Below, one piece after another: positions 4,412 through 47,127 of a stretch of DNA of 64,000 nt (positions are counted from its first letter, which is position 1; the number at the start of each line of letters is the position of its first letter). Position numbers and translations under genes: made by a program. The notes beneath the pieces are model-generated. The model saw nothing but the letters and a program-made list of their open reading frames with translations, was not told where the DNA came from and ran no database searches. The stretch comes from Lytechinus variegatus (taxonomy: Eukaryota > Echinodermata > Echinoidea > Temnopleuroida > Toxopneustidae), in assembly GCF_018143015.1 (NCBI RefSeq), contig NC_054757.1, positions 912,501-976,500 of the forward strand, in the 5' to 3' direction.

Positions 4412-4948
4412 AGTATGGAAGGGGTTGTCACCCGGGGTTGTCTGGTCCCGAAATCAAGGAAAAGCCTGAAGACTTCAATAGCTATAATAAACTTATTTAC
4501 TTTGAAGGGATTCCACCACAAAATGTATTTTTCTCCAATCTTTAATTGAAAGAGAATAGTATTTTCTCTGTCATTTCTCATTCTTTATCCCCTTTCTTCA
4601 TTTCTCCTTCCTTCTCCCCCTCCCCTCTGCCACTCACTCTCTTTGTCTCTCTTCCCTTACCTTCCATTCACCCCCCCCCCTTGAAGCCTCAAAATACTTC
4701 CATTCCTTTATAAGGTTACTCACTTGACTCAAATTTCACCACAAATAAAAACACTTTGGGTGTTTTTCTATTTTAATCCCTTCATTAAAGACACATTTAT
4801 TTGTAATCCATCCAAATAATGGAAGCCTTGAAATAATTAGATTTTCACAATTCTATGAAAAACATACAGTACACACAGATATAAACCAATAATATTATGT
4901 GTAATAAAGATACATGTACATAGTATTGAAAAGACATGATGGCAAAAG
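4412..4948. other. Intergenic
   Basis: AT-rich sequence with a short C/T tract (4,580-4,680). No gene or repeat boundary recognised. Confidence 0.35.
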
Positions 4949-7861: not shown

Positions 7862-9112
7862 TTAGTTCCAGTTATGACCCCAGTCTATTGTAATACACTG
7901 AGTCCAAGCGGGATAAACAGGTATTCTTGTGGAAATATCCCGCCTTCCCTCCCAAGGATCAGGTCCCACCAAATCTGGACTCTGGTTGTTTCTCCACAAT
8001 GCTCCATGGACACATAATATGAACAAGTGGAATGCCTCTGGCCGTCTCACCTGCATCACGCGGTTCAATATAGCAGCAGTGCTGACTTTGAATACTACTC
8101 TAACTCGCACAAGATGTTCAGTGATACATGGTTACTCTTATGTCCACTTTTTATGAACTAGACCAATAAACTTACAGAGATATGATGGTTATTCAACAAA
8201 AAACCCCAACATGACCAAAGTTCATTGACCTTACATGACCTTTGACCTTGATCATGTGACCTGAAACTCGCACAGGATGTTCAGTGATACTTGATTACTC
8301 TTATGTACAAGTTTCATGAATCAGATCCATAAACTTTCAAAGTTATGATGGTAATTCAACAGATACACCCAATTCGGCCAAAGTTCATTGTCCTTTGACC
8401 TTGGTCATGTGACCTGAAACGCGCACAGGATGTTCAGTGATACTTGATTACTCTAATGTCCAAGTTTAATGAACTAGACCAATAAACTTTCAAAGTTATG
8501 ATGGTAATTCAACAGATACCCCCGATTCGGCCAAAGTTCATTGACCCTAAATGACCTTTGACCTTAATCATGAGACCTGAAACTTGCACAAAATGTTCAG
8601 TGATGCTTGATTACTATTATGTCCAAGTTTCATGAATCAGATCCATAAACTTTCAAAGTTATGATGGGAATTCAACAGATATCCCCAATTCGGCCAAAGT
8701 TCATTGACCCTAAATGACCTTTGACCTTGGTCATGTGACGTGAAACTCATGCAGGATGTTCAGTGATACTTGATTAACCTTATGTCCAAGTTTCATGAAC
8801 TAGGTCCATATATTTTCTAAGTTATGATGACATTTCAAAAACTTAACCTCAGGTTAAGATTTCGATGTTGATTCCTCCAACATGGTCTAAGTTCATTGAC
8901 CCTAAATGACCTTTGACCTTGGTCATGTGACATGAAACTCTAATAGGATGTTCAGTAATACTTGATTAACCTTATGGCCAAGTTTTATTAACTAGGTCCA
9001 TATACTTTTTAAGTTATGACATCATTTCAAAAACTTAACCTCAGGTTAAGATTTGATGCTGACGCCGCCGCCGCCACCGCCGTTCTCACTCTGCTTCGCA
9101 GGTGAGACAAAA
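7862..9112. repeat. Tandem repeat, ~165-bp unit, about six copies, DR1-bearing
   Basis: From about 8,085 to 9,040 a unit of about 165 bases repeats. It contains TTCAGTGATACTTGATTAC, CAAGTTTCATGAA, AAAGTTATGATGG, CAAAGTTCATTGACC and CATGACCTTTGACCTT-like blocks. The last copies replace part of the unit with AACCTCAGGTTAAG. The array ends at GCCGCCGCCGCCACC and GCTTCGCAGGTGAGACAAAAA; the counterpart GTCTCACCTGCATCACGCGG lies near 8,046, so the whole block may be one mobile unit. TGACCTTTGACCT occurs exactly at 8236, 8552, 8715 and 8907. Confidence 0.8.
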
Positions 9113-31426: not shown

Positions 31427-31434
31427 GATGATTT
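31427..31434. repeat. Left target-site duplication GATGATTT
   Basis: Identical to the 8 bases at 47,120-47,127 just outside the other end of the foldback element. Confidence 0.75.
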
Positions 31435-34400
31435 GGGGTCCACCCGCCAGTCATAAGGACCACTGGTCATAATACCCGCTAGTTATAAGGACCGCTAGTC
31501 ATAATAGTCATAAGGGTCGCTATTCATAAGGGGCTTTGTTCATAGAGGTCGCAAGTCATAATCAACGATGGGGTTCGCCATTCATAATCAAACAAGAGGG
31601 TCGCTAGTCATAATAAAGGAAGAGGGTCGCCAGTCATAAGGAGGAAAAGGGTTCGTTGATCATAAGGGTCGCCATTCATAATAGTGGATGAGGGTCGCCA
31701 GTCATAATAGTAGAAGGGGTTCGCCAGTCATAATGGTAGATGAGGGTCGTTAGTCATAATAGTAGATGGGGTTCGCCAGTCATAATAATGGATGAGGGTC
31801 GCCAGTCATAATAGTAGAAGGGGTTCGCCAGTCATAATGGTAGATGAGGGTCGCTATTCATAATAGTAGAAAGGGTTCGCCAATCATAATAATGGATGAG
31901 GGTCGCCAGTCATAATAGTAGAAGGGGTTCGCCAGTCATAATGGTAGATGAGGGTCGTTAGTCATAATAGTAGATGGGGTCCGCCAGTCATAATAATGGA
32001 TGAGGGTCGCCAGTCATAATATTAGAAGGGGTTCGCCAGTCATAATGGCAGATGAGGGTCGCTAGTTATAATAGTAGATGGGGTTCGCCAGTCATAATAA
32101 TAGATGAGGGTCGCCAGTCATAATATTAGAAGGGGTTCGCCAGTCATAATGGCAGATGAGGGTCGCTAGTCATAACAGTAGATGGGGTTCGCCAGTCATA
32201 ATAATAGATGAGGGTCGCCAGTCATAATATTAGAAGGGGTTCGCCAGTCATAATGGCAGATGAGGGTCGCTAGTCATAATAGTAGATGGGGTTCGCCAGT
32301 CATAATGGTAGATGAGGGTCGCTATTCATAATAGTAGAAAGGGTTCGCCAGTCATAATAATGGATGAGGGTCGCCAGTCATAATAGTAGAAGGGGTTCGC
32401 CAGTCATAATGGTAGATGAGGGTCGTTAGTCATAATAGTAGATGGGGTTCGCCAGTCATAATAATGGATGAGGGTCGCCAGTCATAATAGTAGAAGGGGT
32501 TCGCCAGTCATAATGGTAGATGAGGGTCGTTAGTCATAATAGTAGATGGGGTCCGCCAGTCACAATAATGGATGAGGGTCGCCAGTCATAATAGTAGAAG
32601 GGGTTCGCCAGTCATAATGGTAGATGAGGGTCGTTAGTCATAATAGTAGATGGGGTTCGCCAGTCATAATAATGGATGAGGGTCGCCAGTCATAATATTA
32701 GAAGGGGTTCGCCAGTCATAATGGCAGATGAGGGTCGCTAGTCATAATAGTAGATGGGGTTCGCCAGTCATAATAATAGATGAGGGTCGCCAGTCATAAT
32801 ATTAGAAGGGATTCGCCAGTCATAATGGCAGATGAGGGTCGCTAGTCATAATAGTAGATGGGGTTCGCCAGTCATAATAGTGGATGAGGGTCGCTATTCA
32901 TAATAGTAGAAAGGGTTCGCCAGTCATAATAATGGATGAGGGTCGCCAGTCATAATATTAAAAGGGGTTCGCCAGTCATAATGGTAGAAGAGGGTCGCTA
33001 GTCATAATAGTAGAAGGGGTTCGCCAGTCATAATGGTAGATAAGGGTCGCTATTCATAATAGTAGAAAGGGTTCGCTAGTCATAATAATAGATGAGGGTC
33101 GCCAGTCATAATAGTTGAAGGGGTACGCCAGTCATAATGGTAGATGAGGGTCGCTATTCATAATAGAAGAAAGGGTTCGCCAGTCATAATAATGGATGAG
33201 GGTCGCCATTCATAATCAAACAAGAGGGTCGCTAGTCATAATAAAGGAAGAGGGTCGCCAGTCATAAGGAGGAAAAGGGTTCGTTGATCATAAGGGTCGC
33301 CATTCATAATAGTGGATGAGGGTCGCCAGTCATAATAGTAGAAGGGGTTCGCCAGTCATAATGGTAGATGAGGGTCGCTATTCATAATAGTAGAAAGGGT
33401 TCGCCAGTCATAATAATGGATGAGGGTCGCCAGTCATAATAGTAGAAGGGGTTCGCCAGTCATAATGGTAGATGAGGGTCGTTAGTCATAATAGTAGATG
33501 GGGTTCGCCAGTCATAATAATGGATGAGGGTCGCCAGTCATAACATTAGAAGGGGTTCGCCAGTCATAATGGCAGATGAGGGTCGCTAGTCATAATAGTA
33601 GATGGGGTTCGCCAGTCATAATAATAGATGAGGGTCGCCAGTCATAATATTAAAAGGGGTTCGCCAGTCATAATGGCAGATGAGGGTCGCTAGTCATAAT
33701 AGTAAATGGGGTTCGCCAGTCATAATAGTGGATGAGGGTCGCTATTCATAATAGTAGAAAGGGTTCGCCAGTCATAATAATGGATGAGGGTCGCCATTCA
33801 TAATAGTAGAAGGGGTTCGCCAGTCATAATGGTAGATGAGGGTCGTTAGTCATAATAGTAGATGGGGTCCGCCAGTCATAATAATGGATGAGGGTCGCCA
33901 GTCATAATATTAGAAGGGGTTCGCCAGTCATAATGGCAGATGGGGGTCGCTAGTTATAATAGTAGATGGGGTTCGCCAGTCATAATAATAGATGAGGGTC
34001 GCCAGTCATAATATTAGAAGGGGTTCGCCAGTCATAATGGCAAATAAGGGTCGCTAGTCATAACAGTAGATGGGGTTCGCCAGTCATAATAATAGATGAG
34101 GGTCGCCAGTCATAATATTAGAAGGGGTTCGCCAGTCATAATGGCAGATGAGGGTCGCTAGTCATAATAGTAGATGGGGTTCGCCAGTCATAATGGTAGA
34201 TGAGGGTCGCTATTCATAATAGTAGAAAGGGTTCGCCAGTCATAATAATGGATGAGGGTCGCCAGTCATAATAGTAGAAGGGGTTCGCCAGTCATAATGG
34301 TAGATGAGGGTCGTTAGTCATAATAGTAGATGGGGTTCGCCAGTTATAATAATGGATGAGGGTCGCCAGTCATAATATTAGAAGGGGTTCGCCAGTCATA

Positions 34401-36090
34401 ATGGCAGATGAGGGTCGCTAGTCATAATAGTAGATGGGGTTCGCCAGTCATAATAATAGATGAGGGTCGCCAGTCATAATATTAGAAGGGGTTCGCCAGT
34501 CATAATGGCAGATGAGGGTCGCTAGTCATAATAGTAGATGGGGTTCGCCAGTCATAATAGTGGATAAGGGTCGCTATTCATAATAGTAGAAAGGGTTCGC
34601 CAGTCATAATAATGGATGAGGGTCGCCAGTCATAATAGTTGAAGGGGTACGCCAGTCATAATGGTAGATGAGGGTCGCTATTCATAATAGAAGAAAGGGT
34701 TCGCCAGTCATAATAATGGATGAGGGTCGCCATTCATAATCAAACAAGAGGGTCGCTAGTCATAATAAAGGAAGAGGGTCGCCAGTCATAAGGAGGAAAA
34801 GGGTTCGTTGATCATAAGGGTCGCCATTCATAATAGTGGATGAGGGTCGCCAGTCATAATAGTAGAAGGGGTTCGCCAGTCATAATGGTAGATGAGGGTC
34901 GTTAGTCATAATAGTAGATGGGGTTCGCCAGTCATAATAATGGATGAGGGTCGCCAGTCATAATAGTAGAAGGGGTTCGCCAGTCATAATGGTAGATGAA
35001 GGTCGCTAGTCATAATAGTAGATGGGGTTCGCCAGTCATAATAATAGATGAGGGTCGCCAGTCATAATATTAGAAGGGGTTCGCCAGTCATAATGGCAGA
35101 TGAGGGTCGCTAGTCATAATAGTAGATGGGGTTCGCCAGTCATAATAGTGGATGAGGGTCGCTATTCATAATAGTAGAAAGGGTTCGCCAGTCATAATAA
35201 TGGATGAGGGTCGCCAGTCATAATAGTTGAAGGGGTACGCCAGTCATAATGGTAGATGAGGGTCGCTATTCATAATAGAAGAAAGGGTTCGCCAGTCATA
35301 ATAATGGATGAGGGTCGCCATTCATAATCAAACAAGAGGGTCGCTAGTCATAATAAAGGAAGAGGGTCGCCAGTCATAAGGAGGAAAAGGGTTCGTTGAT
35401 CATAAGGGTCGCCATTCATAATAGTGGATGAGGGTCGCCAGTCATAATAGTAGAAGGGGTTCGCCAGTCATAATGGTAGATGAGGGTCGTTAGTCATAAT
35501 AGTAGATGGGGTTCGCCAGTCATAATAATGGATGAGGGTCGCCAGTCATAATAGTAGAAGGGGTTCGCCAGTCATAATGGTAGATGAGGGTCGCTAGTCA
35601 TAATAGTAGATGGGGTTCGCCAGTCATAATGGTGGATAAGGGTCGCTATTCATAATAGTAGAAAGGGTTCGCCAGTCATAATAATGGTCGCCAGTCATAA
35701 TAGGAGAAAGGGTTCGCCAGTCATAATGGTAGATGAGGGTCGCTAGTCATAATAGTAGATGGGGTTCGCCAGTCATAATAATGGATGAGGGTCGCCAGTC
35801 ATAATAGTACATTGTAAAAAATTAGGTGCTAATTTAGCGCTTACAGTGATTGTATAGTGATCGCACTGGGAGTGCTGGTTTTCTAGTTTAAATTTGAACT
35901 AGAAAATCAGCACTAGTAGTGCAGTCACTATACAAGCACTGTAAGTGCTGAATTAGCAATTAATTTTTACAGTGTAGTAGGGGTTTGCTAGTCATACTAG
36001 TAGATGAGGGTCGCTAGTCTTATTATTTGAAGAGGGTCGCTAACCATGATAGTGGATGGGGTTCGCCCGTCAGTAGAAGGGAACTTTGCT
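31435..36090 (+). repeat. Left foldback arm: ~26/52-bp tandem array
   Basis: The monomer is about 26 bases with core TTCGCCAGTCATAATAGTAG; two alternating versions (GGGTCGCC...AGAA, 24 bases, and GGGGTTCGCC...ATGA, 28 bases) make a 52-base dimer. A marker block with ATAATCAAACAAGAGGG recurs near 31,578, 33,215, 34,738 and 35,328, showing higher-order duplication. The outer 140 bases and the inner ~110 bases (after 35,976) are more divergent than the middle. A MITE sits at 35,810-35,974. Stops occur in every unit, so it is noncoding. Confidence 0.93.
35810..35974. mobile_element. TA-flanked palindromic MITE inside the left arm (165 bp)
   Basis: CATTGTAAAAAATTAGGTGC at the left pairs with TTAGCAATTAATTTTTACAGTG at the right; the centre TTTCTAGTTTAAATTTGAACTAGAAAA continues the palindrome. 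TA flanks both ends, and removing the element plus one TA restores a normal array unit. It therefore inserted after that part of the array existed. Confidence 0.85.
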
Positions 36091-36159
36091 ACATAATAGC
36101 TGAGGTGGGCGCAAAGCGTGAGAACACAAAAAAATGTGATTTTCAAGCCTAATATGTAT

Positions 36160-36490
36160 TATATTGTAGTTCAAAAAGGGTATTTAATTTCGAATAAGAG
36201 CACATTTTTATTTTGAAAAATGGGATTTTTTTTAAATCATAACCAGCAGGAGCTATTAAAAATGACACCCTTTAGAAAGATAAATTATCTCATGTTATTG
36301 ACATTACTTTTGTGACCATCCTGAAATGTTTTGTTGGACTTCAAGAACAGTATTTAGTTTTGAAAAAAGAGCACATTTCATTTTGCCAAAAGGCTTTTTC
36401 CTTTTGAAAAAGGGCATTTTTTTTACCTACGGCGATTTTTTTTTCATCATAACCAGCAGAAGTTGTTAGAAATGACACCCTCCCCTAAAA
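36160..36490. repeat. Direct repeat of ~190-bp blocks at loop start
   Basis: AGAGCACATTT(T/C)ATTTTG followed by CATAACCAGCAG(G/A)AG and AAATGACACCC occurs twice (near 36,197-36,270 and 36,368-36,480). Function unknown. Confidence 0.5.
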
Positions 36491-36739
36491 AAAATCAAAT
36501 TATCTTTAGGCGAAAAGGTGTAGATTGTGAATGATTCCAATAACAAGGAAATCTTCTTTGAATATATGCATTTAAGATAGTGTTGACCTAAACCTGTACC
36601 ACAGTATTTTCTAAAAGCCTTTTTTTAATAGAGGTTTTTTTTTAAGAAAAATGTCTTTTCTATCTATATTATACTTTTTTTTAGTTGATGTTGAATATGA
36701 TATGAGCATGAAATTATTCCTTCATATTATATATTTCAT

Positions 36740-37229
36740 TTTTTGAAAAGGAAAAAAAACAAATATTCATTGTTTACAGGAGACTCATTTTGTAAAGGAT
36801 TTGGAAGAAAGCATCTTAAAGGAGTGGGAGGAAGGTTTTTTTCTCATATATATCATCTAATGCAATGCTATATTATTTGATAAAAACATACAACTTGTTA
36901 TTAAGAGAGTAAAATGCGACACTGATGGAAAGTATGTTCCTTATTTCATTGATTTCATTGTATGGGCAAAATGACCCTAAATTTTTTAGATGTATTGAAA
37001 GTATCTTATTGGACTATGATGATCCTCATAAAATCCTATGTGGTGATTGGAACCTGGTCCAAAGTTTTGAGTCAGTGAGTTAATTTAGTTGATCCATGGC
37101 GTCAGTTAAATCCAAATCCAAAATGTTATACTTGGAGACAGCCCACACCATTGAAGCAAAGTAGAAAACATTATTTTTTGATATCTTCAGATATTATTTC
37201 TTTGGTTAGAAAATGTGATATTTTTATTT
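36740..37229 (+). mobile_element. L1/Tx1-like LINE, endonuclease part 1
   Basis: Plus-strand frames show NIHCLQETHF (the catalytic Gln-Glu-Thr-His block of APE-type endonucleases) near 36,762, CGDWNLV (GDFN-like block) near 37,039, and TWRQPTPLKQSR-like residues near 37,133. Frames change along the stretch, so it is a decayed copy. It is interrupted by a SINE at about 37,230-37,434. Confidence 0.7.
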
Positions 37230-37434
37230 TTTTTTTTTTTATTTTTTTTTAAACAAGTGCACACCTAGTTACCAATAATGCATACAGCATTTCCATTTAT
37301 TTGAAAGCAGGATAAAAGAGCATTGTAGATTAAATGCCTTGCTCACGGGCATAGCTGCTGCGGCCGGGGATCGAACCCCGGACTTTCCATGTATAGCCAG
37401 GCGCCTTAGACCACTCGGCCACGGCACCTCCACG
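37230..37434 (-). mobile_element. tRNA-derived SINE in LINE, Leu/Ser-like head
   Basis: The minus strand starts near 37,430 with GCCGTGGCCGAGTGGTCTAA (A box) and CCGGGGTTCGATCCCCGG (B box inside a T-arm hairpin), then CAGCTATGCCCGTGAGCAAG and an A-rich tail (T-rich at 37,220-37,252 on plus). The head looks like a type II tRNA, but the 3' acceptor strand is missing, so it is a SINE. GATAT on both sides (about 37,207 and 37,434) may be the target duplication. Confidence 0.78.
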
Positions 37435-37611
37435 ATATCCTAAATATTGATTTAGGATATCGTACCGATCACACAATGATCAGTTTAGAGATTGTGTTAG
37501 CTAAATGTTTTTACAGTATCTTGATATTGTCTTCATGGTAAAGCTTTTGAAACTGTTAGAAAAGAGAAACTCAGATTTATTATTGATTATCAGTTGTTTT
37601 TTTATACACTG
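37435..37611 (+). mobile_element. L1/Tx1-like LINE, endonuclease part 2
   Basis: The frame continues after the SINE with DILNIDLGYRTDHTMISLEI, matching the conserved GYRSDH block at the end of APE-type endonucleases. It is cut again near 37,612 by a block of DNA transposons. Confidence 0.7.
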
Positions 37612-38696
37612 TTCATAGGCGGATCTAGGGGGTCCGAGGGGCCCACCCCCCCCCCCCCATTGGCGGAGCAAAAAAAATAAAAGGGGGGAAGAAAGAAAGA
37701 AAGAAAGAGAGAAAAAAAAGAAAAAGAAGGGAAAAGAGAGGAGAAAAAAGAAGGGGAAACACAAGAAGAGGAAGACGAGTGAATAAAATAAGATGAGGGG
37801 AAGCCTAGGAAAATGATTTTTAAAATCCTTAATGTCACTATAAAAAAAAAAATCGCTTGCGCTTCTCGCTTGCATTGCATGTAAGGTGATTTACATATCA
37901 ATATGGAGATTGAAATATTAAAATTTGAAGTCAACATAGAAAACATATTTCAGCTCAGAAATCGTACTTTCATTATTTTGTTTGATTTACAAAGTGATTT
38001 TTAAAAAGTGCTCAGCAAAACTTTTTGTTTTATGGTCTGAATTTTTAAAAATTTCGGCTCGCGATTATAGCTCGCATTGATTGTTGAAAATCTATCAACT
38101 CATGCATCTTCTTCATAAATCATAAATACAAAAGTGCTTTAAATGTATAGTTTTCAGGTCATAATATTAATAGATTTCACGCTCTCACATTAGGCTTATT
38201 AGGTTAATAAATAAGATATTAATTTAAGAATCAAATTGTCCCTTTTTTTCTTATAGTCATAATTTTCATATGATGACACAATGCTCTTGGAATGTCCTGG
38301 TCCTATGTCAAAACTCAAAGTAATAATAATGAAACTTTTGAATGAAATTAAAATAATGAAACTCTTTTTTTTAAATCTCATCCATATCCACCTCACAATT
38401 TTTCCTACAAAGTGCTTGAAATACAGAGCTTAAATTGACCCTTTTCAGATCGGAATATCAAATGTTTTAAGCTCGCGCTTCGCGCTCACACTTTATCGAT
38501 TTTAACGATGACAAAAGGTATTTAGAATGCCCACTCAGATTCTAGGTCTAAATCTGAAAGAAATCATTATCCAGTTTTATTCCACAATATAAAAAAAATT
38601 GTGCTCGCGCTTTGCGCTCAATGTAGAAAGATATCCAATTACTCATCCTTTTCATGATTTACAAAACATGAATGGAGTGTCCCGTTTTTAGGTGTA

Positions 38697-39012
38697 AACA
38701 GCGGCGTAACAGGGGTCGGTGGCCAAGGGGAGGGGGGGGGGGGGCAAGAGACAAAAATTTCCCGGTCATATCATGGAATAAACAGGCGCAATGGTGTAAT
38801 TAGGCGACGATTTCGAAAGGGCAAGACATTGTGTATCAGGCAGAATTTATCTTTAAAAAAAAGTTGCGAGAGAGCGATGCGAGCGAGCAAAAATTTTGAC
38901 ATTTTTAATACAAAAATCCAATTTTGTGATAGATTTTGACATGATATCCAGAGAATATATTTCACTCTTCTCTCTTTCCATCCCTTTTTTGTGATCTGTA
39001 CGCCACTGTTAA
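38697..39012. mobile_element. hAT-like MITE with CAGCGGCGTAACAG / CTGTACGCCACTG ends
   Basis: The ends are inverted partners and match the CAGTGGCGTA class of hAT termini. The target duplication is not clean (GTAAACAG against GTTAACAG is one possibility). Confidence 0.5.
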
Positions 39013-40122
39013 CAGGATTATTTGCGGCAGTAGCGTGCAGAGTAAACAAAACCAAAATCAAGGGGCGCAGTATGGCGCATGTGCTAAAAAAGCTGCTTAA
39101 TATAAGTCCCGAGCGAGCGAAGCGAGAAAAAAATCACCTTTTCATGAGAATCTAAATTTGAGATATCTTTTTTTACATGGTAAAACTTTTGGGGACCATG
39201 GCCCAACCCTTCCATACTCATATACGGCAGTGCTATGCGTTTGGGGTCTGGGGCGGAGCCCCCGGAACTTCTTGATATCAAAGCCATTTAAACCTCGCAG
39301 ATTGCCGCTATTTAATCAAATTGCGGGTATATACAGAATATAGCTTTTACACAACACATTTATTCAACCCAGTTGAACCAAATATTTTGAGGGGGCAAAA
39401 CATAGCAATGTGGGGGGAAGTCGCCAGCGAGCAAGCGAGCTGGAAAAAAAATGCCTATTGAAATTAAATTCTAATTATGTGATAGATTTCTCCATTATAT
39501 TGAGCAAATAACACATTTCATTGTTTCCATTAATTTCATTATACGTTGTCTCCCATAAATTCTTTAATTTCCTCTTGGGTGTTGAACCAAGACCCCCCCC
39601 CCTGCGCCTGTACGCCAGTGATTGAAAGTAAAGCTTAATGTAGGAAGGGTCCCTAAAGGGGGGGGGGCGTAATAGAGCCATTTGAAGGTCATAGATGAAG
39701 AGCCCCTACTGCTTGGGGTCTGGGGCAAAGCCCCGGTAGCTTTTTTTGCATAAAATTTAGCAAGCTAATAGCACAATGTTGTATGCAGTTCCTCTTTCTT
39801 CTCGCTCTTTATTTTCTATCCTCGTCAGCCCGGTCGTGTTATTAAGTTTTTATTTCTTGTCCCTTTTCTTTGTTTTCCAATTTAGCTTTTGACTAATTCC
39901 ATTCTACCTTCATTTCCCGCTATTGTTTGCCATCTTTTAATTTATTTCCCATCATGCTATTGCACTATATAGGTCTATTTCAGAATGATTTGTTCTTTCT
40001 CAAATGTTTTTCTTTCGTTCTTCCCGCTTTCCTTCCTTTTCCATTTCAAAAAATATATTTTTCCTTGTTTTCTTTTTAATATATTATATTAACAATTTCT
40101 GCTCGCGCTTTGCGCTCGCTAT

Positions 40123-40540
40123 ATTAAAGGAAACCAATACCCAAGAAGAAAAGCAATTTTACTTGAAAGAGTAAAATGAAAGGATCAATTTAAAAAAAGT
40201 TTCATCAAAATCGGTTATGAAATAAGCAAGTTATGGGAGTTTGAAAACTCTTGTTGTACTTTCTAAGGGCATCCTTAAATTGGCAAACGTGCTTCAATAT
40301 GGCTGATTTTGTGGACAACTCTCCATTTGTTTTGTACACAAATTTTCAGATTTTCCTCATTATCTTTCAAGTTGCATCTTGCCTCCTTCTGAGCACAACA
40401 TATGTCATGGGAAAATATAATCCACACCATATATGTCAAGGTCAGGAGGTGATAATGTGAAATATGTAAAATAAAGGGGAAAATCTGAAAATATGTGTAC
40501 AAAACAAATGGAGAGTTGTCCACAAAATCAGCCATTCAGT
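40123..40540. mobile_element. Foldback MITE (~0.4 kb)
   Basis: ATATGGCTGATTTTGTGGACAACTCTCC near 40,298 is matched in reverse complement by GGAGAGTTGTCCACAAAATCAGCC near 40,510; TTTTGTACACA, CAGATTTTCC and CATATATGTCA also pair around a centre near 40,410. The outer left part (AAATCGGTTATGAAATAAGC) resembles the MITE at 53,750-54,170. Confidence 0.7.
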
Positions 40541-40797
40541 CATTTCTGCTCGCGCTTCATTCATTTATTCATTTGCATGCACATCTTTTTCAGAAAAAAT
40601 ACAAAGGATTTCCAAAAAATTAGCTCGCGCTTCGTGCTCACATTATATAAATAAAGATGATATTGTCTATAAATGTTTATTCATAGGAATAAAGCTAAGA
40701 AGTGAGTATTAGGATTACCCCTTCAAAGAAACCAAAAATTATCTTCGAGTGGCCGATCGGGGAAAATATGTCTGAAAAAAATTCCGCCCCCCCCCAT

Positions 40798-41769
40798 TCA
40801 ACATTTGTTGAATTGATTCATGATAATGGTACAGTATTGCAAGAACAAACAGACATCTTAAGAGAAATTGGGTCATATAATGAACAGTTATATAAATATC
40901 ATGGAAATAGTGATGCTGAAGAACCTTTTTTTATCTTATTAGAGAAGAGAGTTTCCATAGTCTTACAGAGGAAGACGATTCTTCTTTAGAAGGAGAAATA
41001 TCTTACAGTGAAGTTGATTTTGCATTAAAAAAATATGAAAAATAATAAGCCTCCTGGACGAGATGGATTTACAACTGATTTTTTTAAAGCATTCTTTCAG
41101 GACTTAGGTATATTCTTGGTACGAAGTATGAATTTTGCTTATATTTCTGGAAAATTATCCATCTCACAAACAATAATGGCTTGATAACATTAATTCCTTA
41201 AGGTGACAAAGTAAGACATTTCATCAAAAATTGGAGATCAATTTCATTGTTGAATGTTGTTTGTAAACTGTTGTAAAGTTGTATTGCTCACAGACTTTAA
41301 AAAGTATTACCATATAATTATTCATGTTAATCAATCAGGATTCTTGTCTGGACGATTTATTGGTGAAAATAGGAAAATTTTGTATTATTTGTGTATATGG
41401 AGAAGAAACTTATTCCTGATTTCTGATTTTTCATGATTTTTTGTTTAAAACGCTTTCCATTTTTAAATTTGGCAAATCTTTCATGACATGAATAAAAAAT
41501 ACTTGATCAGAATGCATTTTCTAGTGTTATAGTCAATGGGCAAATGACATTAAGATTCGTTTTTGTTAAGCGCTAAAAGTCTTGGGTTGTTAATTCGAAA
41601 TTCACACTCTGCCAAACGAATTTATGTTGGCTTAAAAGAATACAAAGTTCTTTAAAATGCGGATGACACAGTTTTATTTCTCAATGGTGCAGCTGCCAGT
41701 TTCTGTAATGTACTAAATATTTTGGATTCATTTGCTAAATGTAGTGGGTTGAAGATCAATACGCAAAAT
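40798..41769 (+). mobile_element. L1/Tx1-like LINE, linker and reverse transcriptase (decayed)
   Basis: In order: ELIHDNGTVLQEQTDILREIGSY near 40,815; NNKPPGRDGFTTDFFKAFF near 41,041; a GKLSISQ-type block near 41,150; NQSGFLSGRFIGEN near 41,330; NADDTVLFLN near 41,656 (the YADD catalytic block with Tyr replaced by Asn); CSGLKIN near 41,745. These are the conserved blocks of L1/Tx1-clade LINEs. Several frame changes and stops show it is dead. It ends abruptly where the right foldback arm begins, so the RT thumb and C-terminus are missing. Confidence 0.82.
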
Positions 41770-44700
41770 CTACCATCTACCTCAGCTACCATTTTGACTG
41801 GCGAACCCCTTCTACTATTATGAAAATCGACCCCCATCTACTATTATGAGTGGCGAACCCTTTCTTCTATTATGACTGGCGACCCTCATCTACCATTATG
41901 ACTGGCGAACCCCTTCTACTTTTATGAATAGCGACCCTCATCTACCATTATGACTGGCGAACCCCTTCTACTTTTATGTCTGGCGAACCCCTTTTAGTAT
42001 TATGACTGGCGACCCTCATCCATTATTATGACTGGCGAACCCTTTCTCCTATTATGACTGGCGACCCTCATCCATTATTATGACTGGCAAACCCTTTCTA
42101 CTATTATGAATAGCGACCCTCATCTACCATTATGACTTGCGAACCCCTTCTACTATTATGACTAGCGAACCTATTTTAGTATTATGACTGGCGACCCTCA
42201 TCCATTATTATGACTGGCGAACCCTTTCTCCTATTATGACTGGCGACCCTCATCCATTATTATGACTGGCGACCCTCATCCATTATTATGACTGGCGAAC
42301 CCTTTCTACTATTATGAATAGCGACCCCCATCTACCATTATGACTTGCGAACCCCTTCTACTATTATGAATAGCGACCCTCATCTACCATTATGACTGGC
42401 GAACCCCTTCTACTATTATGAATAGCGACCCTCATCTACCATTATGACTGGCGAACCCCTTCTACTTTTATGATTGGCGAACCCCTTTTAGTATTATGAC
42501 TGGCGACCCTCATCCATTATTATGACTGGCGAACCCTTTCTCCTATTATGACTGGCGACCCTCATCCGTTATTATGACTGGCGACCCTCATCCATTATTA
42601 TGACTGACGAACCCTTTCTCCTATTATGACTGGCGACCCTCATCTACCATTATGACTGGCGAACCCCTTCTACTATTATGAATAGCGACCCTCATCTACC
42701 ATTATGACTGGCGAACCCCTTCTACTATTATGAATAGCGACCCTCATCTACCATTATGACTGGCGAACCCCTTCTACCATTATGACTGGCAACCCTCATC
42801 CATTATTATGACTGGCGAACCCTTTCTACTATTATGAATAGCGACCCTCATCTACCATTATGACTTGCGAACCCCTTCTACCATTATGACTGGCGAACCC
42901 CTTCTACGTTTATGACTGGCGAACCCTTTTTAGTATTATGACTGGCGACCCTCATCCATTATTATGACTGGCGAACCCTTTCTCCTATTATGACTGGCGA
43001 CCCTCATTCCTTATTATGACTGGCGAACCCTTTATACTATTATGAATAGCGACCCTCATCTACCATTATGACTGGCGAACCCCTTCTACTATTATGAATA
43101 GCGACTCTCATCTACCATTATGACTGGCGAACCCCTTTTACTATTATGACTGGCGACCCTGATCTATTATTATGACTGGCGAACCCTTTCTACTATTATG
43201 AATAGCGACCCTCATCTACCATTATGACTGGCGAACCCCTTCTACTTTTATGATTGGCGAACCCCTTTTAGTATTATGACTGGCGACCCTCATCCATTAT
43301 TATGACTGGCGAACCCTTTCTCCTATTATGACTGGCGACCCTCATCCGTTATTATGACTGGCGACCCTCATCCATTATTATGACTGACGAACCCTTTCTC
43401 CTATTATGACTGGCGACCCTCATCTACCATTATGACTGGCGAACCCCTTCTACTATTATGAATAGCGACCCTCATCTACCATTATGACTGGCGAACCCCT
43501 TCTACTATTATGAATAGCGACCCTCATCTACCATTATGACTGGCGAACCCCTTCTACCATTATGACTGGCGACCCTCGTCCATTATTATGACTGGCGAAC
43601 CCTTTCTACTATGATGAATAGCGACCCTCATCTACCATTATGACTTGCGAACCCCTTCTACCATTATGACTGGCGAACCCCTTCTACTTTTATGACTGGC
43701 GAACCCTTTTTAGTATTATGACTGGCGACCCTCATCCATTATTATGACTGGCGAACCCTTTCTCCTATTATGACTGGCGACCCTCATTCCTTATTATGAC
43801 TGGCGAACCCTTTCTACTATTATGAATAGCGACCCTCATCTACCATTATGACTGGCGAACCCCTTCTACTATTATGAATAGCGACTCTCATCTACCATTA
43901 TGACTGGCGAACCCCTTTTACTATTATGACTGGCGACCCTGATCTATTATTATGACTGGCGAACCCTTTCTACTATTATGAATAGCGACCATCATCTACC
44001 ATTATGACTGGCGAACCCCTTCTACTATTATGAATAGCGACCCTCATCTACCATTATGACTGGCGAACCCCTTCTACTATTATGAATAGCGACCCTCATC
44101 TACCATTATGACTGGCGAACCCCTTCTACTATTATGAATAGCGACCCTCATCTACCATTATGACTGGCGAACCCCTTCTACTTTTATGACTGGCGAACCC
44201 CTTTTAGTATTATGATTGGCGACCCTCATCCATTATTATGACTGGCGAACCCTTTCTCCTATTATGACTGGCGACCCTCATCCGTTATTATGACTGGCGA
44301 CCCTCATCCATTATTATGACTGACGAACCCTTTCTCCTATTATGACTGGCGACCCTCATCTACCATTATGACTGGCGAACCCCTTCTACTATTATGAATA
44401 GCGACCCTCATCTACCATTATGACTGGCGAACCCCTTCTACTATTATGAATAGCGACCCTCATCTACCATTATGACTGGCGAACCCCTTCTACTTTTATG
44501 ATTGGCGAACCCCTTTTATTATTATGACTGGCGACCCTCATCCATTATTATGACTGGCGACCCTCATCCATTATTATGACTGGCGAACCCTTTCTACTAT
44601 TATGAATAGCGACCCTCATCTACCATTATGACTTGCGAACCCCTTCTACCATTATGACTGGCGAACCCCTTCTACTTTTATGACTGGCGAACCCTTTTTA

Positions 44701-47119
44701 GTATTATGACTGGCGACCCTCATCCATTATTATGACTGGCGAACCCTTTCTCCTATTATAACTGGCGACCCTCATTCCTTATTATGACTGGCGAACCCTT
44801 TCTACTATTATGAATAGCGACCCTCATCTACCATTATGACTGGCGAACCCCTTCTACTATTATGAATAGCGACTCTCATCTACCATTATGACTGGCGAAC
44901 CCCTTTTACTATTATGACTGGCGACCCTGATCTATTATTATGACTGGCGAACCCTTTCTACTATTATGAATAGCGACCCTCATCTACCATTATGACTGGC
45001 GAACCCCTTCTACTATTATGAATAGCGACCCTCATCTACCATTATGACTGGCGAACCCCTTCTACTATTATGAATAGCGACCCTCATCTACCATTATGAC
45101 TGGCGAACCCCTTCTACTATTATGAATAGCGACCCTCATCTACCATTATGACTGGCGAACCCCTTCTACTTTTATGATTGGCGAACCCCTTTTAGTATTA
45201 TGACTGGCGACCCTCATCCATTATTATGACTGGCGAACCCTTTCTCCTATTATGACTGGCGACCCTCATCCGTTATTATGACTGGCGACCCTCATCCATT
45301 ATTATGACTGACGAACCCTTTCTCCTATTATGACTGGCGACCCTCATCTACCATTATGACTGGCGAACCCCTTCTACTATTATGAATAGCGACCCTCATC
45401 TACCATTATGACTGGCGAACCCCTTCTACTATTATGAATAGCGACCCTCATCTACCATTATGACTGGCGAACCCCTTCTACTTTTATGATTGGCGAACCC
45501 CTTTTATTATTATGACTGGCGACCCTCATCCATTATTATGACTGGCGACCCTCATCCATTATTATGACTGGCGAACCCTTTCTACTATTATGAATAGCGA
45601 CCCTCATCTACCATTATGACTTGCGAACCCCTTCTACCATTATGACTGGCGAACCCCTTCTACTTTTATGACTGGCGAACCCTTTTTAGTATTATGACTG
45701 GCGACCCTCATCCATTATTATGACTGGCGAACCCTTTCTCCTATTATGACTGGCGACCCTCATTCCTTATTATGACTGGCGAACCCTTTCTACTATTATG
45801 AATAGCGACCCTCATCTACCATTATGACTGGCGAACCCCTTCTACTATTATGAATAGCGACTCTCATCTACCATTATGACTGGCGAACCCCTTTTACTAT
45901 TATGACTGGCGACCCTGATCTATTATTATGACTGGCGAACCCTTTCTACTATTATGAATAGCGACCCTCATCTACCATTATGACTGGCGAACCCCTTCTA
46001 CTATTATGAATAGCGACCCTCATCTACCATTATGACTGGCGAACCCCTTCTACTATTATGAATAGCGACCCTCATCTACCATTATGACTGGCGAACCCCT
46101 TCTACTATTATGAATAGCGACCCTCATCTACCATTATGACTGGCGAACCCCTTCTACTATTATGAATAGCGACCCTCATCTACCATTATGACTGGCGAAC
46201 CCCTTCTACTTTTATGATTGGCGAACCCCTGTTAGTATTATGACTGGCGACCCTCATCCATTATTATGACTGGCGAACCCTTTCTCCTATTATGAATGGC
46301 GACCCTCATCCGTTATTATGACTGGCGACCCTCATCCATTATTATGACTGACGAACCCTTTCTCCTATTATGACTGGCGACCCTCATCTACCATTATGAC
46401 TGGCGAACCCCTTCTACTATTATGAATAGCGACCCTCATCTACCATTATGACTGGCGAACCCCTTCTACTATTATGAATAGCGACCTTCATCTACCATTA
46501 TGACTGGCGAACCCCTTCTACTTTTATGATTGGCGAACCCCTTTTATTATTATGACTGGCGACCCTCATCCATTATTATGACTGGCGACCCTCATCCATT
46601 ATTATGACTGGCGAACCCTTTCTACTATTATGAATAGCGACCCTCATCTACCATTATGACTTGCGAACCCCTTCTACAATTATGACTGGCGAACCCCTTT
46701 TATTATTATGACTGGCGACCCTCATGTATTATTATGACTGACGAACCCCTTCTACTATTATGACTGGCGACCCTCATCACCTATTATGACTGGCGACCCT
46801 TATGATTAATGTAGCCTCTTCCTTTTTATGACTAGCGACCCTTATCTAGTATTATGAATACCGACCCTCGTTGTTGATTATGACTAGCGATCCTTATGAT
46901 CAATTACCCTTATGGTCCATTATGAATAGCGACCCTTATTTTGCATTATGAAAATCGGACCTTATGACCCATGGTCCTTATGACCTTATGACTAGCGACC
47001 CCTTTTGCCTATTATGACTAGCGAGCTTTTGGGTATAGGATTTTACACGTTATGACTAGCGGTCCTTATGACCAGTCAGTATTATGACTTATGGTCCTTA
47101 TGACTGACGGGCTTATCCC
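41770..47119 (-). repeat. Right foldback arm: ~26/52-bp tandem array
   Basis: Same monomer as the left arm, in opposite orientation (plus strand reads TATTATGACTGGCGAACCCC). The marker TGACTGACGAACCC occurs near 42,602, 43,382, 44,317, 45,306 and 46,346, so the higher-order period grows from 780 to about 1,040 in steps near multiples of 52. The outer ~330 bases (from about 46,790) are divergent and mirror the left arm's outer end. It joins the LINE directly at its inner end. Noncoding. Confidence 0.93.
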
Positions 47120-47127
47120 GATGATTT
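47120..47127. repeat. Right target-site duplication GATGATTT
   Basis: Partner of 31,427-31,434. Confidence 0.75.

Follow-up and report, generated by a model that had tools for sequence, protein, structure and literature searches.

A probably non-autonomous foldback-type DNA transposon with unlike ends in the genome of Lytechinus variegatus

In a segment of 64,000 nucleotides from the sea urchin Lytechinus variegatus (contig NC_054757.1; C18:912501-976500 in our numbering, hereafter the window, to whose positions plain coordinates refer), two long arrays of one tandem repeat stand in opposite orientation around a loop that holds remains of a long interspersed nuclear element (LINE). The question raised by this locus is whether the arrays and the loop form one mobile unit. 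An initial annotation of the sequence had proposed that the block moved as a whole, and searches of the genome (869,567,369 bases in 33 contigs) bear this out: the block moved as one unit, since ends, arms and loop recur together at dispersed sites with duplications of 7-9 bp, mostly 8 bp, and an empty site exists for a sister copy. We conclude with high confidence that positions 31435-47119 represent one copy of a DNA transposon of the foldback type, probably non-autonomous and composed of a left-type (L) and a right-type (R) end, two inverted arms built from a 26-bp unit, and a loop without a recognised transposase.

Ends, pairing and target sites

The element measures 15,685 bp and lies between two direct copies of GATGATTT on the plus strand, at 31427-31434 and 47120-47127 (from sequence reading and comparison of the flanks of pairs), that is, directly outside both ends, as first annotated. 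This octamer occurs four times on the plus strand of the window, and the chance of its matching exactly at both flank positions is about 4^-8. The terminal 27 bp of the L end, GGGGTCCACCCGCCAGTCATAAGGACC (31435-31461, plus strand), were delimited by genome-wide matches of a 20-mer and a 59-mer, and those of the R end, GGGATAAGCCCGTCAGTCATAAGGACC as read on the minus strand (47093-47119), by genome-wide matches and alignment of the ends. The two ends are alike without being identical sequences, agreeing at 22 of 27 and at 53 of 66 positions, and the former agreement was reached by none of 100,000 shuffles of the 27-mer. The inverted alignment of the 27-bp outer ends in the initial annotation therefore stands at 22 positions, but the ungapped run common to both is CAGTCATAAGGACCA rather than CCAGTCATAAGGACC, since the right end has TCAGTC. 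The element is sharply bounded: in the 40 top-ranking places for either side, window included, matches start no more than 4 bases from 31435 on the left and no more than 11 bases from 47119 on the right.

The first 20 bases of the L end were found at 172 places in the genome (92 forward and 80 reverse; none for the reversed control), and the 59-mer of the left end, with up to three mismatches, at 186 (none for the control). The best 40 left-side places are 99-100% identical and the best 40 right-side places 97-100%, with the window among each. A degenerate pattern covering both 27-bp end types matched 336 places, and its reversed control matched none. Pairing was analysed for the first 100 of these 336 ends, as listed, using a pattern that demands exact ends. 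Forty facing pairs were obtained, spanning 8.1-25.7 kb with a median of 13.6 kb, and every one of them joins one L and one R end, 25 in one orientation and 15 in the other. The size of the window copy, at first thought unusual, is thus ordinary within the family. Pairing of like ends, or gene conversion freely reaching the ends, would be expected to yield L+L or R+R copies, and none is present among the 40 pairs; converted copies with mutated ends would escape the exact-end pattern, and about two thirds of the ends lie outside the listing. A variant of the right-type end, GGGATAAGCCCGCCAGTCATAAGGACC, constitutes a third type and was seen at C1:274002, C1:48709062, C3:65421272 and C3:66227551, four of the 20 listed ends without a partner that are taken up below; among the 100 ends it occurred only in this partnerless state and perhaps belongs to another subfamily with a different opposite end.

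Target duplications were counted from 38 L and 29 R ends. Only ends with the exact motif were paired, a rule by which the R end at L056, facing the L end of L016, was dropped, and 18 pairs resulted, the window's included. Exact duplications of 8 bp flank 12 of these pairs, 9 bp two and 7 bp two, so that the genome search for other copies proposed with the initial annotation found both the ends and, for the most part, the 8-bp duplication to be shared. In the remaining two pairs, which are one locus on C9 and its inverted duplicate, nine extra bases stand at the outer left end with GTGGGGGC outside them, and GTGGGGGC also follows the right end at the C9 copies; owing to this duplication the 18 pairs stand for 17 insertions. 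At 47 sites (one flank per pair, all read as 8 bp, leaving out L003, which abuts another copy, and one C9 duplicate) G occupies position 1 in 24, T position 3 in 31 and C position 8 in 18. The targets tend weakly to be palindromic: 1.38 pairs per site compare with 1.04, and 37 of 5000 random sets reach the observed value. This preference is too weak to name a superfamily.

An empty site was found for a sister copy (C5:27759669-27772929), whose joined flanks match C5:22558961-22559130 across the junction (98% identity along 171 of 172 bases). Of the 40 places listed for these flanks, 39 cross the junction and the other one is the copy's own right flank. In the alignment of the paralogous empty site, 265 of 274 positions are identical (97%) and the target is present once, with one substitution within it. 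Distant members of the target repeat, located in the window's loop and in L077, likewise span the junction. The family thus combines target-site duplication with clean insertion, as foldback elements do, the clean site having been seen for the sister copy and not for the window copy.

Some copies have an irregular structure. At C9:25.57-25.65 Mb (L027/L046 and L028/L047) two copies are mutually inverted duplicates whose 300-bp flanks are identical, and each contains a further left end about 1.8 kb inward, in what may be a large palindrome or an assembly feature. At L003 (C1:1621280) only ACAGC separates a left end from a right-end sequence without its final 10 bases; this junction is either a head-to-tail joint of two copies or an aberrant transposition product. 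At L001 (C1:835003) the left arm is interrupted after about 460 bp by frames that, judged by eye, resemble LINE endonuclease and reverse transcriptase, and this interruption may be part of the reason why the copy reaches 24.5 kb.

Arms and loops

The left arm (31435-35809, plus strand) consists of a degenerate outer part followed by a 26/52-bp tandem array with the unit consensus TCGCCAGTCATAATAGTAGATGGGGG, and the right arm (41786-47119, minus strand) is an inverted array of the same unit, as established by Tandem Repeats Finder and by alignment of the arms. The 52-bp (2 x 26) array occupies 31669-35809 and, reverse-complemented, 41786-46800, and degraded units reach both ends of the element. 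From these limits the left arm measures about 4.4 kb (4.6 kb with stray units at 35987-36042) and the right arm 5.3 kb; the opposed layout and the right-arm length given in the initial annotation are confirmed, and its 4.7 kb for the left arm is corrected. A gapped alignment of the two arms gives 85% identity over 4,357 columns. Self-similarity is strongest at a shift of 988 bases (19 dimers) in the right arm and at 104 and 52 in the left, preferred shifts which indicate that blocks of units were multiplied. The gapless register between the window's arms and those of other copies breaks off at differing depths. Long inverted terminal arms of tandem repeats that enclose a loop and vary in length are foldback features; the variation is seen in the two unequal arms of the window, in the lost register and in the span of the pairs, which also reflects loops and insertions. 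Outside the element, the window has further tandem arrays at 8102-9062, whose periods are 163/316 and 192 bp.

The arms enclose loop A (35810-41785, plus strand), an apparently non-coding segment containing the stray arm units, which recurs at 21 other scored places with 96-99% identity. The 22 places scored are the best of 15,957 first-look candidates and do not represent a frequency. Eleven of them, window included, match in one piece (98-100%), two retain one half only (96-98%), and nine match in two pieces (96-98%) between which some 775 bases are inserted, near position 38854. The flanking matches of this insertion (L073:2660-3434) overlap by 2-6 bp, and it occupies the same place in nine other copies; a subfamily carrying the nested insertion has therefore itself multiplied. 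A loop segment at 40299-40535 is about 80% complementary to itself (in the loop search, query positions 4550-4786 matched themselves on the minus strand).

Loop type was determined from the central parts of ten other copies. Loop A or its relatives occupy seven: five have the same loop at 97-100%, one of these with a 2.1-kb deletion and one match running into the arm at 92%, and two have longer relatives that are 94-98% identical outside the arm. The other three contain a 3.4-kb loop B, which is 97-98% alike among them and gave no blastn match to the window's element at E 1e-10. Two loop types with no similarity detected between them therefore stand between the same arms, in a family with sharp ends, mostly 8-bp duplications and near-identical copies, whose listed complete pairs all combine an L with an R end.

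Loop A contains broken pieces of an L1-type LINE endonuclease (36913-37249, plus strand; a weak match to PF14529 at E=0.036, below the cut-off) and reverse transcriptase (41029-41799, plus strand, entering the inner edge of the right arm). The latter pieces match L1 ORF2p weakly, at residues 466-495 (E=0.27) and 701-737 (E=0.021), and the best-scoring chain for both is another reverse transcriptase, slightly ahead of human L1; the piece between them, 41254-41433, gave no reverse transcriptase match. A longer endonuclease frame in a relative (L077:111-578) matched the L1 endonuclease structure at E=0.059 and no Pfam family. Although each piece is weak alone, they are assigned to the L1 type because their order is collinear with the human LINE-1 ORF2 protein. 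A loop holding a LINE instead of a transposase had been annotated as unusual. Weak LINE pieces are indeed present and no transposase was recognised, but the LINE recurs within the loop of many copies: it is old debris of a common loop and not a chance occupant of the window copy.

Transposase search and alternative explanations

P-, MULE- and Merlin-type transposase domains were located across the genome (42, 31 and 51 matches, 124 in total), and their distances were taken to 206 listed end places, after a first comparison with 133 places, two of them loop places. The genome has no fewer than 336 ends, so this comparison may have overlooked an autonomous copy.

Several results weigh against our reading of the element. 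None of the 124 domain matches lies within 59 kb of the 206 end places; the nearest are at 85 kb (P-type), 60 kb (MULE) and 64 kb (Merlin), and eight (two P, three MULE, three Merlin) are on C16 and C19, contigs without a listed end. No transposase was found for the element among the P, MULE and Merlin domains or among loop frames compared with Pfam, hAT (PF05699) not being part of the search. At three Merlin and two MULE loci (L079-L083), the ends resemble those of the element at no more than 17 of 27 positions, their best ungapped scores being 14-17 of 27, with no chance level computed. Of the 100 listed ends, 20 had no exact partner within 40 kb. Finally, none of the 40 places listed for the 291-bp joined flanks of the window copy crosses the junction, so no empty site for it was seen in this genome; the matches comprise its two own flanks and a common repeat in the last 100 bases.

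As regards the superfamily, the ends start with GGGG and GGGA. Merlin elements have ends beginning GG and duplications of 8-9 bp (PMC8101967), and the Mutator superfamily is characterised by duplications of 8-11 bp (PMC6446971). The element's ends and duplications fit the former description and its duplications the latter: the GG start and the 8-9 bp duplication are Merlin traits, though two of the 18 pairs show 7 bp, and 14 of 18 pairs have the 8 or 9 bp also expected of Mutator, with two at 7 bp and two with none at the paired ends, a trait that is not diagnostic alone. Rehavkus is described as a Mutator relative with a minisatellite and a 9-bp duplication (PMC6446971), and most foldback elements are assigned to Mutator (PMC4079207). 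Among the best-scoring places at the Merlin and MULE loci, one in L079 begins GGGGTCCA, and no opposite end with a duplication was found for it.

That two satellite-like arrays came by chance to enclose a LINE in opposite orientation, the 8-bp repeat outside them being fortuitous too, would agree with the arms being tandem arrays and with the LINE-like debris in the loop. It is hardly credible, however, given that the same ends, arms and loop stand at dispersed sites with differing duplications of 7-9 bp and that the sister copy has an empty site; the shared ends, the duplications and this empty site already refute it. Spread by segmental duplication or recombination instead of transposition finds support at one locus, at C9 (25.57 and 25.63 Mb), where the inverted duplicate has identical 300-bp flanks on both sides. 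As an account of the family it is very improbable, because matches end at the element's ends, 46 of 47 flanking 8-mers from separate sites differ, and a target duplication stands at the paired ends in 16 of 18 pairs and 9 bp away in the other two.

A further alternative is that the element is autonomous, with its own unrecognised transposase encoded in the loop or arms. The preservation of loop A at 96-99% across many copies speaks for this, yet the longest stop-to-stop frames in the window's loop have just 129, 120 and 115 amino acids, and the different loop B stands between the same arms. Moreover, none of 22 different frames from the window's loop, loop B and relatives reached the Pfam cut-off or was recognised as a transposase, in a scan that covered part of the frames and copies and could miss intron-split genes. 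Matches below threshold were LINE pieces (E 0.036 and 0.075) and the unrelated Nckap1, Pep1_7, DUF4418 and GatF (E 0.065-0.14). An autonomous element is accordingly very unlikely, and the transposon is probably non-autonomous and moved in trans.

In a possible mechanism, a DDE-type transposase made elsewhere would bind the L and R ends, perhaps aided by the copies of the arm unit, and would pair L with R only, moving all DNA between them as DNA. New loops might arise by capture of host or transposon DNA between the arms or through arm recombination, and the arrays might grow and shrink by unequal exchange or slippage. We tentatively put forward a wider reading, which we consider possible though unlikely: a foldback transposon whose two ends remain strictly unlike although its arms share 4-5 kb of inverted homology, serving as a modular in-trans carrier of 8-26 kb of arbitrary DNA with exchangeable loops, possibly by means of a transposase type new to foldbacks. 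On this reading the transposase must accept only L with R, since every complete pair listed keeps both although the arms could convert the ends.

Short-read assembly copes poorly with tandem arms several kilobases long, and large families with complete copies are therefore probably under-recorded. Here, one well-assembled genome provides 40 complete pairs among 100 listed ends and shows unlike ends, exchange of loops, duplicated targets and an empty site. Such a family makes it testable which transposase moves these elements, whether unlike ends are needed, and how tandem arms can lengthen without change at the ends. The first descriptions of foldback transposons date from about 1980 (PMC4079207).

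Comparison with known foldback elements

The element has the foldback layout, a known structural class, with unusually long arms and strictly unlike ends. A literature search found no title or abstract naming this family, most subscription papers, those on TU elements included, being beyond its reach. In host group the nearest are the TU elements of another sea urchin, Strongylocentrotus purpuratus (1983 Nature paper), which reportedly have long inverted arms of tandem repeats, a middle segment and 8-bp duplications, all of them features found here. Their outer repeat is said to have a 15-bp unit, as against 26 bp (52-bp dimer) in the present element. FB of Drosophila melanogaster has a foldback layout with a loop of foreign DNA and can mobilise the DNA between its ends; it resembles the element in layout and foreign loop, but its duplication is 9 bp and its repeats are different. 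FB bounds the Ising transposable element (PMC6431247).

In unlike terminal motifs and varied interiors the nearest known element is Tm1 of root-knot nematodes. According to PMC3169594, Tm1 has composite inverted repeats in which tandem arrays vary in length, groups with different interiors, and unlike terminal motifs, as a rule A1 opposite A2; its duplications are 8-10 bp, mostly 9, with no clear target consensus, its unit is about 14 bp, and some members encode a Phantom-type Mutator transposase. The composite repeats, the unlike termini, the range of duplication lengths and the varied interiors are points of agreement with the element. As there described, Tm1 differs from the element in the ~14-bp unit, the mostly 9-bp duplication without a clear target consensus and the transposase of some members, none having been found here.

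Tetris of Drosophila virilis is described in PMC4079207 as an apparently non-autonomous foldback with tandem repeats within inverted repeats, duplications of 8-10 bp and no transposase found, with a unit of about 220 bp, inverted repeats of up to 1,735 bp and three structurally complete copies. The element shares with it the tandem repeats in inverted repeats, a similar duplication length, the apparent lack of autonomy and the failure to find a transposase, and differs in its 26-bp unit, its arms of 4.4-5.3 kb and its 40 complete pairs among 100 listed ends. Galileo of Drosophila, a member of the P superfamily, has very long inverted repeats (up to about 1.26 kb), variable internal tandem repeats in some subfamilies, many copies without transposase, 7-bp duplications and a known P-type transposase, as given in the part available of PMC3573991. 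The very long repeats, the internal tandem repeats of some Galileo subfamilies and the transposase-less copies have their counterparts here, whereas the shorter inverted repeats, the 7-bp duplications and the P-type transposase set Galileo apart. The arms of the element, at 4.4-5.3 kb, are longer than those stated in these sources for either Tetris or Galileo.

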